DNA of 36,336 nt, taken from positions 1-36,336 of the forward strand of contig JAGXNQ010000011.1 of assembly GCA_019894955.1 (NCBI GenBank), given 5' to 3'. The DNA is from Promethearchaeota archaeon (GTDB taxonomy: Archaea; Asgardarchaeota; Lokiarchaeia; Sigyniarchaeales; SOKP01). This document shows positions 4,701 through 15,976 of this stretch, one piece after another. Both the position numbers and the translations under genes were made by a program. The first letter of the stretch is position 1; each line of letters starts with the position of its first letter. The notes under the pieces are model-generated. The model saw nothing but the letters and a program-made list of their open reading frames with translations, searched no databases and had not been told where the DNA came from.

Positions 4701-5247
4701 CAACTTCATCTTTCATTTCCCAATTAATAGCACCAGCTTCACATTCTTTTTCGCATAATTGACAGGCTCCTTTCGTCAAATAAAGACATTTTTCTGCATC
4801 AATTACAGCTTTACGCGGTACTGCTTGCGGAAAAGGAATATATATTGCTGTTCGATTACCCATACCTTCTTCAAATTCAGAAGGTATTTTTTTCATTGGG
4901 CACTTTTCAGAACAAGCTCCACAACCCGTACAACTATCCCAATCAACATACTTTGCTTTCTTTAAAACCTTTACACTGAAATTCCCAGGCTCTCCGGTAA
5001 CTTCTTGAACTTCTGAGTATGGAATTAGTTCGATATTTGGATGTCTAGATGATTCAACCATCTTGGGAGCTAATATACATATGGAACAATCTAATGTGGG
5101 AAATGTCTTATCGAGTTGTGCCATTCTACCCCCTACAGAAGAGGTTTTCTCCACTAAAATCACCTTATATCCTTGATCGGCTAAAGTAAGAGACGCTTCT
5201 ATACCCGATATTCCTGCTCCTATTACCATAATATTACTATTTGGCAT
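1762..5247 (-). CDS. hdrA: Tandem HdrA flavoprotein fused to MvhD
   Basis: 1161 aa, far longer than the roughly 650 aa of methanogen HdrA. Residues 1-450 form one HdrA-like flavoprotein unit: FAD loop GAGISG (10-15), ferredoxin ligands CTGCGACSEKCP (106-117), a second Cys group at 154-169, and SCVGSR plus CSYCSKFCC near 251-269. Residues 453-1000 form a complete second HdrA: N-terminal CRCGINIAG (460-468), a second FAD loop GGGVAG (599-604), CVGSR (747-751) and two C-terminal [4Fe-4S] motifs (942-953 and 975-985). Residues about 1017-1140 are an MvhD domain with FLCNWCSYAGADTCG and a later GCHIGDCHY. MvhD normally docks Hdr to a hydrogenase or another electron donor, so the protein should accept electrons and bifurcate them by flavin. 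The positions used for selenocysteine in some relatives are Cys here. It is the first gene of the operon. Confidence 0.93.
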   Translation of the reverse strand: MPNSNIMVIGAGISGIEASLTLADQGYKVILVEKTSSVGGRMAQLDKTFPTLDCSICILAPKMVESSRHPNIELIPYSEVQEVTGEPGNFSVKVLKKAKYVDWDSCTGCGACSEKCPMKKIPSEFEEGMGNRTAIYIPFPQAVPRKAVIDAEKCLYLTKGACQLCEKECEAGAINWEMKDEVVGYDVSSIIVATGIDQLDPVVLDRYHYGEYPNVITAMQYERLLSASGPTEGELIRPSDKEHVHNVAFISCVGSRNEDLCSYCSKFCCMYQTKEGVVTREHSPDTNVTIFFNDIRIIGKNQEEFIERAKNEYGLIYYRGIPGDIRENPKNHNLYVKHANLDTGDVETSEFDLVVLANAVIPRKDAGKLAEILDIEQNEFGFFKTNASTEDLRSTRDGIYVTGSCQSPDDIANSVAKAGAAAALAANHAVPLSAEEREISLPPLISVKPGDEPRIGVFICRCGINIAGYMDVPSLVEYTKKLPNVVFSMENKYSCSQLTQDIVKEKIKELNLNRVVVAACTPRTHEPLFQKTIREAGLNEYLFNFVSIRELDSWVHMHDNPRATDKAKDLIRMGVARVTAQKAEYKIKGSVVPEALVVGGGVAGISAAMEIAKKGFKVHLVEKEDKLGGQLNLIYKINFDKIDSKQFLDDRLHEFNGMKNITTYLNSEIAEIKGSIGNFNVKVKNKDEKIDNLNVGVILIATGAYEYKPVGWYDYGKNENVMTQLELSEKLKDDELKDGETLVFIQCVGSRQPEGANGVTYCSLICCSESIRHALYVKEKYPNSNIYVLYRDIRVGTDEELYYWKARENVNYIRFNDYPILDNTNDKLNINVKDILTQTDLTIEADKVVLSTPLIPYDTKALGEQIKCARDQNGYFLEAHVKLRPVDFATDGIYLAGTCHGPKGISDSISQGRGAAAHALIPLISGEVEAEPLFSIVDPALCIACQKCEEVCNFGAIGVNFDNDILVSESNPLLCKGCGDCSAACPAGAITMSHFSDDQIYPMIKEATRGDFLDERPRIVAFLCNWCSYAGADTCGVSRFQYPTNIRPIRVMCTGRIPKSFILQAFLEGADGVFIGGCHIGDCHYLEGNYDMLRRFNEVHELLEKVGINPKRYHLEWVSASEGKKFSQVVTQFVNQVKELGPIPKTGDKIEPKKEKAKEGA

Positions 5248-5283
5248 TTTTCTTCAGTTTTTTTTTTTTTTTCTTCTTACTAA

Positions 5284-5300
5284 ATTACTACATTAGTAAT
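5284..5300. promoter_or_regulatory. Perfect inverted repeat ATTACTA-CAT-TAGTAAT upstream of hdrA
   Basis: Two 7-nt arms separated by 3 nt, 37-53 nt before the hdrA start. A minus-strand TATA-like box at 5350-5357 would place transcription start near 5325-5330, so the repeat would sit in the early transcribed leader. It could be an operator for a dimeric repressor. The regulator is unknown. Confidence 0.4.
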
Positions 5301-5412
5301 GAATTAACGATCAAAAAAAAAAGATATTGTTAATTCCAGTAAGATATAACTTTATAATGAGTATTAATGACTATTTCATATTTAAATTTTGCATGTAATG
5401 TGCGAATTTAAC

Positions 5413-5455
5413 AATTTTTTGCGTCATTTGATCAATTTTTCGCAGTTTTTGATCA
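5413..5455. repeat. Imperfect tandem direct repeat, 21-nt period, ending in TTTGATCA
   Basis: Two copies of roughly AATTTTT-GCG/CGC-...-TTTGATCA. The TTTGATCA octamers start at 5427 and 5448, 21 nt apart (two helical turns). A related TTTTTGATC lies in the opposite orientation at 5309-5317. The spacing would put two bound proteins on the same face of the helix upstream of hdrA. Function is inferred. Confidence 0.35.
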
Positions 5456-5746
5456 TCTTATTTCGGAAAAAAAGCCCATTTCAGTAATGTTCATTTATGG
5501 GAGTTTTTCCTCTTAAAGGAATGATGACAAAATAGTATATCTAAATTCATATTTCCTTTTCAATAATCTCAAATTAACTTTTTTAGAAATTATATCTTGT
5601 AATTCCCTTTTTCCCCAAGAAAAAAAGTCCAATCTAATCGACTTTTTCACGTGATAAAGAAAATTTGAGAGAGTGAGAGCAAATTTATAAATGTAGATTA
5701 ATTTATTTCATATATAAAAAAGAAGAAAATTATTTGTCGATATCTT

Positions 5747-5769
5747 TTATAAAACGGGGTTATAAAACG
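5747..5769 (+). promoter_or_regulatory. Duplicated TATA-like element TTATAAAACG
   Basis: The decamer TTATAAAACG occurs at 5747-5756 and again at 5760-5769, separated by GGG. Either copy resembles an archaeal TATA box. They lie about 150 nt before the GTPase start, so a transcript from here would have a long leader. A closer promoter may also exist. Confidence 0.3.
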
Positions 5770-5872
5770 TTATTGATTAAACATAAGATTGCGATCATCT
5801 TTCATTGATAATTTCATATTATCTAGGTATTCGATTAATTTTTATCTAAAAGAATGTAATTACAACATAATA

Positions 5873-5885
5873 AGTGTGAAACACT
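5873..5885. promoter_or_regulatory. Small inverted repeat AGTGT-GAA-ACACT before the GTPase gene
   Basis: A 5-3-5 perfect inverted repeat lies 20 nt before the AGGTGA ribosome-binding site at 5905-5910. It may be an operator or a short leader hairpin. Arms of this length can arise by chance in AT-rich DNA. Confidence 0.25.
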
Positions 5886-5916
5886 AATAGAATCCGACAA
5901 AAATAGGTGAATTACG

Positions 5917-6597
5917 ATAAAGGTATGCGTTTGTGGTCCATTGAGATGTGGTAAATCAACATTAATTAGTCATTTTGATGAAAAAGCCCTCAATGTTGAG
6001 GCAAAAGCGAGAGACAACAATTATTACACGGTTGGCATGGACCTCGGGATAGTTAAATTGAATGGATTTGATGTGTTTCTATTTGGAACACCAGGATTGT
6101 TAAGATTTAAAGTAATGAGAGATGTTATAGTACAAGGTACTGATGGGATCATTTTCATGTTTGATGCTGCCCATCCGGATAAGGACGAAGATGGGCTCAT
6201 AATTCTTAATGCCGTGAGAAAGCTTTTAATGCCTGAAACCCCAATAGTATATTTAGCAAATAAACAGGATATTGCAGGAGCTAGGCATCCGGAAATCGTC
6301 CGTTCCCAAAATTATTTACCATCGGATGCGGTTATATTCCCAACTACCACAAGAACTGGTGAAAATTTAGAAGAAGCATTAAAATATATTGTTAACCAAA
6401 TATATGATAATTATTCTTCACTACTTAAGGTGCTAAGAACTTACGAATCAGATATTGAAGGTCTTGCTAAAAAATTAGATAAAGATAATATCCAGATGCG
6501 AGATTTGTTAAATAACTTAGAAATAAAGAGATTTATTGACGTGGATCGATTTAATAGAACTTTTAAAGTTCGCGAAGGTATGAAGCTCTTAATGTGA
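5917..6597 (+). CDS. Small GTPase of the MglA/SRPRB-like (COG2229-type) family, probable ATA start
   Basis: 226 aa if read from ATA at 5917. The G1 loop is GPLRCGKS (7-14), the G2 threonine is in YYTVG (about 38), G3 is FGTPG (56-60) and G4 is ANKQD (114-118), with TTTRTGEN near the G5 position. The GTPG variant of DxxG is typical of this bacterial/archaeal GTPase group related to MglA and the SRP-receptor beta family. The C-terminal 60 residues are helical and charged. The start is unusual: the first ordinary start in frame, TTG at 5941, would cut the P-loop glycine away, and a stop lies at 5908-5910. Only ATT, ACG and ATA are available. AGGTGA at 5905-5910 sits at normal distance from ATA. 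Partner and pathway are unknown. Confidence 0.85.
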   Translation: MKVCVCGPLRCGKSTLISHFDEKALNVEAKARDNNYYTVGMDLGIVKLNGFDVFLFGTPGLLRFKVMRDVIVQGTDGIIFMFDAAHPDKDEDGLIILNAVRKLLMPETPIVYLANKQDIAGARHPEIVRSQNYLPSDAVIFPTTTRTGENLEEALKYIVNQIYDNYSSLLKVLRTYESDIEGLAKKLDKDNIQMRDLLNNLEIKRFIDVDRFNRTFKVREGMKLLM

Positions 6598-6606
6598 TTA
6601 ATGTAG

Positions 6607-6633
6607 AAAAAATGACCTCATTTTTTGAAAAAA
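6607..6633. terminator. Bidirectional hairpin between convergent genes
   Basis: A perfect 9-nt inverted repeat AAAAAATGA-CC-TCATTTTTT (6607-6626) overlaps the pckG stop and follows the GTPase stop by 9 nt. TTTTTT-G-AAAAAA (6621-6633) adds a second symmetric run. T runs on both strands suit archaeal oligo-T termination in both directions. Confidence 0.45.
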
Positions 6634-8531
6634 TCATTTGGAAAGATAACATCTTTTCCTTTATCATTCATTAACTGAATTAAATCATTTTTCTGTTTAT
6701 TAAGAAGAGTCCATATAAATTCTGGTATGTCTTTTTCAGCTTTGAACATTTTTTCCATTCGTTCTAATTTTGCCAAAATATTTTTTATTCTTATTGAAAA
6801 TTGCTCGATATAATCAGTTTCTGAATATAATTTTCCTAATTCAAGATCAAATAAATTCTTCAAATCTTCATATAATGGAATGTATCCAATTGGTGTTATA
6901 ATTGCTTCAAAATCACCCTGAGTTCTCCCTTCTGCCCATATTATCCATATTTTCTTATCAAGTATTCCATTCAAGTACTTTCCGTCTTCATTTTTCAGAA
7001 AGTAGTTGGTAGAAAACACTTTTGGGCAATATTTTAATTCTTTTCCAAACTTCTCATGGTTTTTTAGATATTTTCCTAAAGGTACAACTAAGAAATCAAG
7101 ATTAGCCATGGGGTTTGATTTTCTCACTCCTTCCGCTCCGATTGTTGCAGATGTGGTTTCAGATTCAATAGTTGCTCCGAGATATATTCCGTGTTCCCAA
7201 TTTAAACTTTGTAATATTGGGGGCATAGTATCTGAATCTCGTCCACCATAAAATATACCATGAAGGGGAACTCCCTCCGGATCCTCAAGTTTGTCATCGG
7301 TATTAGATAATTCGCTTAATCTTATCGTGTATCTTGCATTAGGATGAGCAAATGGAATTGAATTTCCATTTTCATCTGCTTTGTTTGCTTTCCAATGGCC
7401 AGAAAAATTCATTCCTTCTTTAGGGTTATCTTTACCCATACCTAACCAGTATGAATCTCCATCTTTAATTAAAACATTAGAAAAAATTGTTTCACGGGGG
7501 GTTGTAAGAGCTTCATATATAACAGGATCATCAATTTGATTTACATCTTTTATAATTCCAAAGATGCCTTTTTCAATATTGGCAGCATGAGCAAATCCAT
7601 CACCCCAAGAACGTAGATAAGCAATATCATCACCAACTATTTGTTGACCGGGTAACATGGCTGTGGACGTTTTTCCACAAGCACTAGGATATGCACCTGC
7701 AAAATAACTCACTCGGTTTTTTCCTTTTGGACAAACTCCCATTATGAAGTAATGCTCTGTTAGCCAATCTTCATTATTTGCTTTATGAATAGCCAATCTG
7801 AGGGCTAATTTTTTTAAACCTAAACTATTGCCAGCATATTGATTATTAACAGAAAGAACCCTAGATTCTTTTAAGTCCACGTATATTCTTCGATTCTTTA
7901 GGTTTTTAGTAACAGGTGGATCCCCTGTTAGTTCTCCAGCTGAATGGATGAAATAAAAGAAATCTTCTGAGTTATTTAATTTTTTGAATTCTTCATATCC
8001 CGCTCGATACAATAAATCTTCTGAATGGGCTACATATAGTGAATCTGTGAGTTGAAGAGAGAGAATAGAGAATTTCGAGTTTTTAGGACCAAGGCAGAAA
8101 AATCTAATAATACATTCTTTCCCTTTCATACAACCCTCCATTATTTTCAGGATTTCTTCTAATCCTTCCTCCCTGTCAATAGTGTTCAACGCTGGTGGTT
8201 TATAACCTCCTTTAGGGATTAAAATCTTTGTATTTCCTTTATCCCTTGCTTGATCATGATTAGACATTGTAACAAATCCATCAAAATGAACTGTGTGCCC
8301 ATTTATATTTAACTTGGATTCCTCATGCTTTTTAACCACATTTTGCCTTACATACGTAATATCTTCTTCAGAATCAGAGACAACAGTAAGTTTGCTAGGA
8401 TTGCACAAATCCACAAATTGATGAATTATGTGCAATACTTTTTTATTATTTAACTCATTTAATTTCTCAAAGTCTGTTTCTGAAAGTAGTCCTCTGGTTA
8501 CATACCCCTCTATTTCCTTTAGATAATCCAT
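6618..8531 (-). CDS. pckG: Phosphoenolpyruvate carboxykinase (GTP)
   Basis: 637 aa, full length for the GTP-dependent enzyme. The kinase loop ACGKTST (284-290) follows FAGAYPS, as in the family's PSACGKT motif. HSAGELTGDPP (196-206), the GDDIAYLR stretch (300-307) and GRDSDTMPP (in the C-terminal half) are also characteristic. The enzyme interconverts oxaloacetate and PEP with GTP/GDP and is cytoplasmic, giving gluconeogenesis or anaplerosis. Variant residues near KGIFGIIKD (321-329) resemble archaeal members more than animal ones. ATG at 8531 has a GCTGAT element 4 nt upstream. An inverted repeat and TATA-like box lie upstream (8559-8595), suggesting its own regulated promoter. It ends against the convergent GTPase gene. 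Confidence 0.94.
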   Translation of the reverse strand: MDYLKEIEGYVTRGLLSETDFEKLNELNNKKVLHIIHQFVDLCNPSKLTVVSDSEEDITYVRQNVVKKHEESKLNINGHTVHFDGFVTMSNHDQARDKGNTKILIPKGGYKPPALNTIDREEGLEEILKIMEGCMKGKECIIRFFCLGPKNSKFSILSLQLTDSLYVAHSEDLLYRAGYEEFKKLNNSEDFFYFIHSAGELTGDPPVTKNLKNRRIYVDLKESRVLSVNNQYAGNSLGLKKLALRLAIHKANNEDWLTEHYFIMGVCPKGKNRVSYFAGAYPSACGKTSTAMLPGQQIVGDDIAYLRSWGDGFAHAANIEKGIFGIIKDVNQIDDPVIYEALTTPRETIFSNVLIKDGDSYWLGMGKDNPKEGMNFSGHWKANKADENGNSIPFAHPNARYTIRLSELSNTDDKLEDPEGVPLHGIFYGGRDSDTMPPILQSLNWEHGIYLGATIESETTSATIGAEGVRKSNPMANLDFLVVPLGKYLKNHEKFGKELKYCPKVFSTNYFLKNEDGKYLNGILDKKIWIIWAEGRTQGDFEAIITPIGYIPLYEDLKNLFDLELGKLYSETDYIEQFSIRIKNILAKLERMEKMFKAEKDIPEFIWTLLNKQKNDLIQLMNDKGKDVIFPNDFFKK

Positions 8532-13237: not shown

Positions 13238-14392
13238 TTATTTAATTTTTTCATTTATGATTGATTTCAGATCAATCTTCTCCTTGAGTAGATAATCGTC
13301 TAGTACGTCTTTTGCCTTTTCTCTTTGCTCTTGGTGTGTTTTAAGGAATTTATTAATCTTTTCTATGAGATCACCTTTACACTCTCCGCATAAAAGATCT
13401 CCACCAGTACATCTTGTTTGAATATTTCTAATTTCATCATCATCTAAAGTGAAAAGCATGAAATGATATTTATACACTGAACAGATTGAAGGATTTCCGC
13501 CTAATTCTCTTTGTATTTTTGCACTTGCTTGTCCACCTGTGAATGCATTATTTACTTTTTTTTTTACCATATCCGGAGTATCTATTGTGAAGATAGCAGT
13601 ATGTTCTACAGAAGCTGACATTTTTCCTCCTTGTTGAAGACTTGGTAGAAATATGCATTGTATAGAGGCAGGTTTGTAATAACCAAGTTTTGGTAATACG
13701 TCTCTTGATAGACGAAAATGAGGATCTTGATCTACAGCGTGAGGGATTATGCAAGGAACATTCTTCTTTTCAATAATACTTTTAATTATAGCTGGAACAG
13801 TTTGGATACTTGTATAAAAAATTTGTCCAATATTTGCGCTATTAGTCAATCCAAAAGTTGCTTTAATAGTAGAGTAAGTTATTTTTTTAGCAATATGTAA
13901 TGCATTTTTATAGAGAGTACCTGCAAGATCAATATCTGAAAAGATAAAGGTCTTTTTTGGATCAAATCCTAGAGCAATAATATCTAATGCATTCTCATAT
14001 GAGTATTTATAAGCATCTTCCAATGATAGGGAGGGATTAAATAGAAATTTCTCATCGTCTGTTAATTGAAACCACAATTCCACATCAAATTTATCTTGAA
14101 GCCACTTTGTAAAAATCCAAGGCATAACGTGACCTAAATGTATATTTCCAGAGGGACCTCTTCCTGTATATAGATAAAAGGGATTTCCTTTTTTATATTC
14201 ATCTAATATCCAATTCAGATCTCTATGAGCAAAAAAGATTTTTCTTGTTAGAAAGGGATGAATTTCATTTGTAATTTCCTTCAAATAAGACAATAACTTG
14301 TCGTCAATTGGTTCTATTCCAAACTCTTGTATTAATTGATCATAATCTACTTCTCCACTTACTTCCCACGGAGTAACAATAAAATTAGGCAT
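13238..14392 (-). CDS. trpS: Tryptophanyl-tRNA synthetase
   Basis: 384 aa from ATG 14392. The archaeal/eukaryotic TrpRS phrase VTPWEV is at residues 6-11, the HIGH-type motif HLGH at 85-88, TDDEKFLF at 111-118, and the KMSAS loop at 257-261 (GGKMSAS). It joins tryptophan to tRNA-Trp in the cytoplasm. The open frame continues up to a TTG at 14503, adding 37 basic residues, but this extension has no family counterpart and contains a TATA-like TATATAAT. ATG 14392 is preceded by GCTGAT, the same element as at pckG, so I prefer it. A CxECK pair (TCGGDLLCGECKG-like region near the C-terminus) may bind zinc. Confidence 0.95.
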   Translation of the reverse strand: MPNFIVTPWEVSGEVDYDQLIQEFGIEPIDDKLLSYLKEITNEIHPFLTRKIFFAHRDLNWILDEYKKGNPFYLYTGRGPSGNIHLGHVMPWIFTKWLQDKFDVELWFQLTDDEKFLFNPSLSLEDAYKYSYENALDIIALGFDPKKTFIFSDIDLAGTLYKNALHIAKKITYSTIKATFGLTNSANIGQIFYTSIQTVPAIIKSIIEKKNVPCIIPHAVDQDPHFRLSRDVLPKLGYYKPASIQCIFLPSLQQGGKMSASVEHTAIFTIDTPDMVKKKVNNAFTGGQASAKIQRELGGNPSICSVYKYHFMLFTLDDDEIRNIQTRCTGGDLLCGECKGDLIEKINKFLKTHQEQREKAKDVLDDYLLKEKIDLKSIINEKIK

Positions 14393-14594
14393 TAGCTTAT
14401 CAGCAGTAATTTTCAAATTATTTTTATTTGATAATCTTTCCTTTTTTTTAGGTTTTAGGGTTTTTAGCCAATTATATATCCTTCTTATACAACCCAAAAA
14501 CAAATAAAAATATGTTCGTTCTTAGTAGATATCGCGAGAGGAAATTTGTAGAGATTAAAAAGAAATATAAAAAATACTTCAGAATAAATTAATC

Positions 14595-15524
14595 TTAGGT
14601 TAAAAGCGGCGTTAATATTTTTTCAATTGCATTTAGAAAATCAGTAAACTTTTCTAGAAATTCATCTTTTAGTGATTCTTTAATAATAACTGATATAAAT
14701 AGTGAATTTTCAGCAATTTTTAATCGGTGAAGATATGAAAGCAAGTTTGCTCCAACATTGGAGAAATTATAATCAGCTTCGTACGATTCCTCTAACATTC
14801 TTTTAAGTAAAAAGAGATGATGCTTAATAGATTCTATGAGTTCAGTATAAAGATCAAGTTCGACAAACTCGCTATAATATTCACTAATTATAATTCCATT
14901 TTTATCAAAAACAATCAAAGAGGAGCAATTAAACTCATTTAAATATTTTTCCAATAGTTCTGAGAGATCATAAAATTTATCATCAAAGATAGACAAACCA
15001 TATGAAATCAATTGTACAATAGAAATTATATCATAGATTGATGTTAGTTGGAATAATATCTTAACAGATGGATATTTTTGGCTAATTCCTTCTTTTAAAT
15101 CATTAATAATGCTGATAGTCTTCTCTTTCCCCCTGATTTCTGGATCGTATTTATGAAATGAAATAATTAAAGGAATATCCAATTTATTTTTCATAAAATG
15201 ATGTAAAATGGAATCTAAATATTCCAATGATATATTAAATCTTTCTTCATCTTGGATATCTATAATATATACCATTAAATCAGTTCCTGCGAAATAAAGA
15301 TCTTGTTTCTTCTTGTATAACTCTCGAAACTTAGTCTGTCCACCCATATCCCAAAAAACTATTCGATTTTTTAAAAATTGGGTCGCATGGTATTCCACTC
15401 TAATGGTGGGTTTGAGTGAGACGATCTCTTTATCAAAATCATACTTCTTATCTAACGCTGTTAAAATTGAAGTTTTACCCGCGTTATCTAGTCCAGCAAT
15501 AATTACTTTGAAAAATTCTTCCAT
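14595..15524 (-). CDS. Rag/Gtr-Arf-like GTPase with C-terminal roadblock-like domain
   Basis: 309 aa from ATG 15524; the frame opens 19 codons earlier but the preceding residues are not conserved. G1 is GLDNAGKT (11-18), identical in style to Arf. G3 is WDMGGQ (58-63). G4 is HKYD (124-127), the variant used by Rag GTPases (HKxD) instead of NKxD. G5 is TSIYD (161-165), close to the Rag TSIWD. Residues about 185-305 form a second domain starting LIVFDKNGIIISEY, characteristic of roadblock/longin-type dimerisation domains, which Rag proteins also have. Rag GTPases act as obligate dimers on membranes in eukaryotic nutrient sensing. The archaeal role is unknown. No lipidation signal is obvious. 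It lies upstream of trpS on the same strand with 202 nt between them. Confidence 0.88.
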   Translation of the reverse strand: MEEFFKVIIAGLDNAGKTSILTALDKKYDFDKEIVSLKPTIRVEYHATQFLKNRIVFWDMGGQTKFRELYKKKQDLYFAGTDLMVYIIDIQDEERFNISLEYLDSILHHFMKNKLDIPLIISFHKYDPEIRGKEKTISIINDLKEGISQKYPSVKILFQLTSIYDIISIVQLISYGLSIFDDKFYDLSELLEKYLNEFNCSSLIVFDKNGIIISEYYSEFVELDLYTELIESIKHHLFLLKRMLEESYEADYNFSNVGANLLSYLHRLKIAENSLFISVIIKESLKDEFLEKFTDFLNAIEKILTPLLT

Positions 15525-15751: not shown

Positions 15752-15976
15752 ATGGAAAGCAAAAAAAACAATTTTTTACAATATTTAGAATATCAAATTA
15801 GCATCAAGAATAGAAGTGAGCAATTTATTAGAAAAATCCCTTCATTTGAGTCACAAATAAATGATAAAAACTCAAAAATTATTAAAATGATTGATGAGTT
15901 TGATGATATTCGCCGCAGAGAAGTTTATACATTATTGGTTGAAGAATTCACAAATGTAATTCAAAAGAAGAAATAA
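15752..15976 (+). CDS. Small charged helical protein, unknown
   Basis: 74 aa, not recognised. It is rich in Lys, Glu, Asn and Ile, predicted almost wholly helical, without cysteines, signal peptide or membrane segment. The start is well supported: AGGAAGGTAT lies 5 nt before ATG 15752. It is divergent from the Rag-like GTPase, with 227 nt between starts, and convergent with yjbQ (3 nt between ends). A phrase such as DEFDDIRRREVYTLLVEEF could be an interaction helix. Functional linkage to the GTPase is possible but unproven. Confidence 0.65.
   Translation: MESKKNNFLQYLEYQISIKNRSEQFIRKIPSFESQINDKNSKIIKMIDEFDDIRRREVYTLLVEEFTNVIQKKK

Follow-up and report, generated by a model that had tools for sequence, protein, structure and literature searches.

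A Rag-like GTPase with a predicted roadblock tail forms a conserved, syntenic family in Lokiarchaeia

Introduction

Rag-like GTPases and roadblock fusions were already noted for Lokiarchaeum in a genome reanalysis of 2016, which PMC4917890 summarises. The Rag-like GTPase-roadblock proteins of Prometheoarchaeum MK-D1 have been described as well, many of them having been annotated as Arf before; for the order GTPase-roadblock an insert in switch II was reported, and one Rag-like pair encoded in an operon was modelled as a heterodimer (PMC10933270). The title of PDB entry 8yl2 presents LokiRagO as a homotetrameric RagA-like small GTPase of Lokiarchaeota. A statement in PMC12554972, citing Vargova 2025, holds that ArfR and Arf are robustly separated from Rag.

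The gene described here is found on a contig of 36,336 bases that makes up the whole window and that belongs to a genome of 2.77 Mb with 88% completeness. The Rag-like GTPase gene occupies positions 14595..15524 on the minus strand and encodes 309 amino acids plus a stop codon (14595-14597); an open reading frame check of the plus strand across 14595-15524 found stops throughout.

Gene identification and sequence motifs

The ATG at 15524 is the conserved start: among the 22 orthologues whose 5′ end is complete, 21 have an ATG at the aligned position. The GTPase is genuine, with match scores far above chance: Pfam Arf matches residues 5-145 with 79.4 bits, above its cut-off, Gtr1_RagA matches residues 6-217 with 70.7 bits (cut-off 22), and the best match in a PDB sequence search is 8yl2, LokiRagO (E 5.7e-32, residues 6-302).

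The motif mixture that was noted when the sequence was read on its own, GLDNAGKT together with HKxD and TSIxD, is indeed found in the open reading frame as GLDNAGKTS, HKYD and TSIYD. The first of these is the G1 motif or P-loop (residues 11-19, 15468..15494, minus strand like all features of the gene), with a mean conservation of 98% across orthologues. The G2 region LKPTI (residues 37-41, 15402..15416) contains T40, and the G3 motif WDMGGQ (residues 58-63, 15336..15353) the catalytic glutamine Q63, both invariant among orthologues. The segment running from switch II into strand 4 (residues 64-88, 15261..15335) has the length typical of Rag, 25 residues as compared to 21-22 in Arf and Ras, and both G4 (HKYD, residues 124-127, 15144..15155) and G5 (TSIYD, residues 161-165, 15030..15044) are of the Rag type. 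Alignment of 22 orthologues showed that the P-loop, G4, G5 and the catalytic glutamine are all conserved; outside the nucleotide motifs the most conserved part is residues 166-181 (0.95), comprising helix 5 and the linker that leads to the tail, with a second peak in tail helix alpha2 (0.87). An Arf-type amphipathic N-terminal helix is absent, only MEEFF preceding K6 of the first strand behind the conserved start, and the 309-residue protein carries no C-terminal cysteine.

Phylogenetic position

The GLDNAGKT P-loop and the slightly higher Pfam score for Arf than for Gtr1_RagA could suggest that the protein belongs to the Arf family (ArfR), or that it stands between Arf and Rag as the sequence-only reading had proposed, having retained the P-loop of Arf and gained a roadblock tail. 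A G-domain tree of 77 sequences was used to place the protein. It comprised the window family, the Rag-like, Arf-like and Ras-like proteins of its own and other Asgard genomes, LokiRagO and LokiRagM as given in the PDB search output, and human RagA and RagC and yeast Gtr1, whose sequences were verified against the PDB. Human ARF1, ARL1 and ARL3, SAR1, HRAS and RAB1A served as yardsticks only. All Rag sequences, the window protein included, are split from all Arf and Ras sequences by a branch with support 100/99, and the Rag branch is still recovered at 99/98 once the alignment columns that cover P-loop, switch II and G4 are removed and the alignment is ended before G5. In approximately unbiased (AU) tests a union of the window family with eukaryotic Arf/Arl was rejected (lnL 117 worse, p 3.6e-87). 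A position outside all other Rags, as their sister, was not rejected (p 0.225) and speaks for an intermediate.

Characters that are independent of a tree point in the same direction. Switch II, counted between the glutamine of G3 and the acidic residue in strand 4, comprises 24-27 residues in 42/42 Rag rows and 21-22 in 35/35 Arf/Ras rows, without overlap and with 25 in the window protein; HKxD occurs in 35/42 Rag rows and 0/35 others, and all 17 Arf rows have NKxD where the window protein has HKYD (the rows in these counts are not independent, eight being orthologues of the window gene). The spacing from the P-loop lysine to G3 is 41 in the window protein and RagA/RagC/Gtr1 as compared to 36 in eukaryotic Arfs, although the values of this measure overlap between the groups. 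The P-loop pattern GL[DN]xxGK[ST] is found in 26/42 Rag, 11/17 Arf and 0/18 Ras rows; being ordinary among Asgard Rag-like proteins, it is therefore no marker of an intermediate. In the sequences compared, the combination of an Arf-like P-loop with Rag motifs is plainly common among these proteins.

An Arf/Rag intermediate is rejected on the basis of the tree, the AU test and the length of switch II, also in view of the missing N-terminal amphipathic helix, and we consider any reading as an Arf-family or intermediate protein highly improbable. By these comparisons the window GTPase is a member of the Rag side, as the noted Rag-likeness had implied. Given an unrooted tree, the shared P-loop may or may not descend from a common ancestor of Arf and Rag.

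Within Rag, the window family is placed in an Asgard group that contains no eukaryotic Rags (96/88; 89/75 without the motif columns), and AU tests rejected a clade with RagA/Gtr1 (p 5.7e-5) as well as one with RagA/RagC/Gtr1 (p 0.003). These results argue against genuine orthology to eukaryotic RagA/Gtr1 combined with nutrient sensing through a Ragulator-like roadblock scaffold. Such a role would fit the Rag motifs, the roadblock tail, the RagA-like catalytic glutamine, the stand-alone roadblock proteins that the genome encodes, including an adjacent pair on contig 205, and the neighbouring aminoacyl-tRNA synthetase gene; that neighbour, however, lies in convergent orientation in most genomes and has been exchanged for a different type, and sequences from other Asgard families (L104, L105, L106 and L121) are nearer to the eukaryotic Rags. 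We hold orthology to RagA/Gtr1 to be very unlikely. The gene was earlier suggested to bear on the origin of nutrient-sensing GTPases; because the union with RagA/Gtr1 is rejected, it has little direct to say about the origin of the eukaryotic Rags. L104-L106 and L121, which lie nearest to RagA/Gtr1 in the tree, if with weak support (80 to 85), are better candidates for that question.

The C-terminal domain

The C-terminal domain (residues 182-309, 14598..14981) had been expected from sequence to be roadblock-like, as in Rag/Gtr, and structure prediction agrees. AlphaFold2 modelling of the tail alone (residues 178-309, 23 sequences) gave a pLDDT of 87.2 and a pTM of 0.82, with the elements in the order helix, two strands, helix, three strands, helix, as is typical of roadblock/LC7 domains. 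Longin domains start with strands, and a longin tail is ruled out by the element order, with the helix first (a-bb-a-bbb-a), and by Foldseek. The top Foldseek matches in the PDB are all roadblock: MglB is found first (TM about 0.6), followed by the C-terminal domains of RagA, RagC and Gtr, LAMTOR-Rag and Asgard roadblock structures, with TM-scores of 0.5-0.65 at 4.4-6 Å rmsd that indicate the same fold and no close kinship.

A profile of the tail matched a profile of other Loki Rag-like tails, those of the LokiRagO type included, with a probability of 96% over 110 columns, and gave no match to stand-alone roadblocks, to RagA/Gtr1 tails or to a G domain. Sequence-profile searches with the tail alone found no Pfam family and no PDB roadblock. 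Because of the predicted structure and the match to other Loki Rag tails, we assign the tail as a roadblock domain, as modelled. Its most conserved helix, alpha2 (residues 223-245, 14790..14858), is a likely dimer interface by analogy with known roadblock dimers and solved Rag structures. The model of the entire protein reaches a modest pLDDT of 68.5; compared by fold to the PDB, it retrieves LokiRagO 8yl2 best and then almost only Rag/Gtr chains (RagA, RagC, Gtr1, Gtr2).

Conservation and gene neighborhood

Orthologues with 53-80% identity are present in 23/24 genomes of the genus (counting that of the window) and in 12/13 other genomes of the same Lokiarchaeia family, or 35/37 overall; none was found in G016, which is incomplete, and G030. 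Outside this family only matches of 30-39% identity were obtained; of the two inspected, L161 and L162, neither shows the neighbourhood on its short contig. The order UPF0047 - GTPase - TrpRS is maintained across the family, and in nearly all genomes the GTPase gene is single copy and has no operon partner. In one relative (L044) tandem copies that are 68% and 57% identical to the window GTPase are located at 5004-5930 and 6402-7322 and possibly form a hetero-pair.

The adjoining tryptophanyl-tRNA synthetase gene (TrpRS, 13238-14503) is present in nearly every relative (L039-L062, L163, L165, L166). The TrpRS at this locus is of two types, about 31% identical to each other: a Pyrococcus/eukaryotic-like type in the window and seven relatives, and a type similar to Aeropyrum 3a04 in 19 relatives. 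Both the type and the orientation of the gene have changed while its locus stayed the same, a pattern that suggests repeated replacement in situ. An operon of TrpRS with the GTPase is ruled out, because the TrpRS gene is convergently oriented in most genomes and its type has been exchanged. An operon with a roadblock partner was rejected too. Head to head with the GTPase gene, an unlisted open reading frame of 74 amino acids (MESKKNNFLQYLEYQI...) is found on the plus strand at 15752-15976; L040 and L050 have similar small open reading frames at the corresponding position.

Other GTPases and roadblock proteins of the genome

The search for roadblock proteins that had been suggested for this genome yielded 11 Robl_LC7 matches, mostly short stand-alone frames. 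Two stand-alone roadblock genes lie side by side on contig 205 (L066, 1501-1755 and 1938-2192), encoding one protein of 95 and another of about 116 amino acids, possibly a heterodimer. A search of the genome for NPR2 gave no match, but its control likewise matched nowhere, so the negative carries no weight. Eight Rag-like paralogues are encoded in the same genome. L004 (contig 43), with a switch II of 27 residues that resembles RagA, and L003 (contig 231) are other Rag-like genes there. The window itself harbors a second small GTPase gene (5941-6597) with a weak Ras/Arf match, the P-loop GPLRCGKS and a G3 motif GTPGL that lacks the catalytic glutamine. An in-frame TGA occurs just before its P-loop with no preceding ATG, GTG or TTG, so its start is unusual or the gene is broken.

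Possible function

The window protein is very probably a Rag-like GTP/GDP switch of a Lokiarchaeia-specific orthologous family, most likely one that associates with itself through its roadblock tails. It would bind GTP and GDP and pair, similar to Rag/Gtr, with itself or a paralogue through the tails, so that a single roadblock platform would carry two G domains; switch I/II would change shape when GTP is bound or hydrolysed, and the docking partner would change with it. Judging from the biology of Rag/Gtr, LokiRagO and MglB, alpha2 may serve as the dimer interface and the linker may couple the nucleotide state to the platform. Since the protein has neither an N-terminal helix nor a C-terminal cysteine or lipid site, membrane contact, if any, would be made via partners, and the roadblock proteins of the same genome possibly localise the GTPase. 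A nutrient-sensing role is borrowed from the eukaryotes and would hold only by analogy.

A variant of the self-associating switch is that the tail pairs mainly with something other than itself, either a different Rag-like paralogue or the stand-alone roadblock proteins, in an obligate heterodimer like that of RagA/RagC. Heterodimers are formed by the eukaryotic Rags and by Gtr1/Gtr2, the MK-D1 operon pair was modelled as one (PMC10933270) and L044 has its tandem copies; in nearly all genomes, however, the gene is single copy without an operon partner, and LokiRagO is a homo-tetramer by the title of 8yl2. On balance we find an obligate heterodimer possible but rather unlikely. Less probable still is a near-universal, single-copy Rag family specific to Lokiarchaeia that would branch off as the sister of all other Rags and act as a homodimeric sensor; if true, it would show what Rag signalling looked like before RagA and RagC split and before Ragulator existed.

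With this gene the Asgard repertoire gains a well-conserved and syntenic Rag-like family. In Asgard genomes a GLDNAGKT P-loop taken by itself is poor evidence of affinity to Arf, and switch II length and HKxD provide simple sequence tests to distinguish Rag-like from Arf-like proteins where the P-loop misleads.

Comparison with known systems

Among known proteins LokiRagO (PDB 8yl2) aligns with both the G domain and the C-terminal domain over residues 6-302 and shares a P-loop of this kind (GLDNSGKT), HKFD and the Rag-length switch II, but it is only about 28-29% identical to the window protein and represents a paralogous subfamily; its nearest relative in the window's own genome is L001 (contig 228) and not the window gene. 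LokiRagM (PDB 8zla, 9m28), a monomeric Rag-like GTPase of Lokiarchaeota, has a similar G domain with GLNYAGKT, HKID and TSIYN, but identity is about 22% and the sequence match stops soon after the G domain, at residue 219. The Rag-like GTPase-roadblock fusions of Prometheoarchaeum MK-D1 have the same architecture and switch II insert and were likewise described as Rag-like yet close to Arf, whereas they belong to another organism and no orthologue of the window family is shown there (PMC10933270).

Eukaryotic RagA/RagC and Gtr1/Gtr2 correspond to the window protein in architecture, HKxD, TSIxD, switch II length class and the G1-G3 spacing of 41; unlike it they have another P-loop, are heterodimeric and Ragulator-bound, and a joint clade with the window family is rejected. 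Arf and ArfR GTPases share the GLDxAGKT P-loop and WDxGGQ, but possess NKxD, a short switch II and an N-terminal helix, lack a roadblock tail and lie on the opposite side of the main branch. Rag-like GTPase-roadblock fusions of Loki archaea are already known (PMC10933270), with solved structures (8yl2, 8zla, 9m28), and the window GTPase is a further orthologous family within this known Rag-like kind rather than a missing link between two eukaryotic families.
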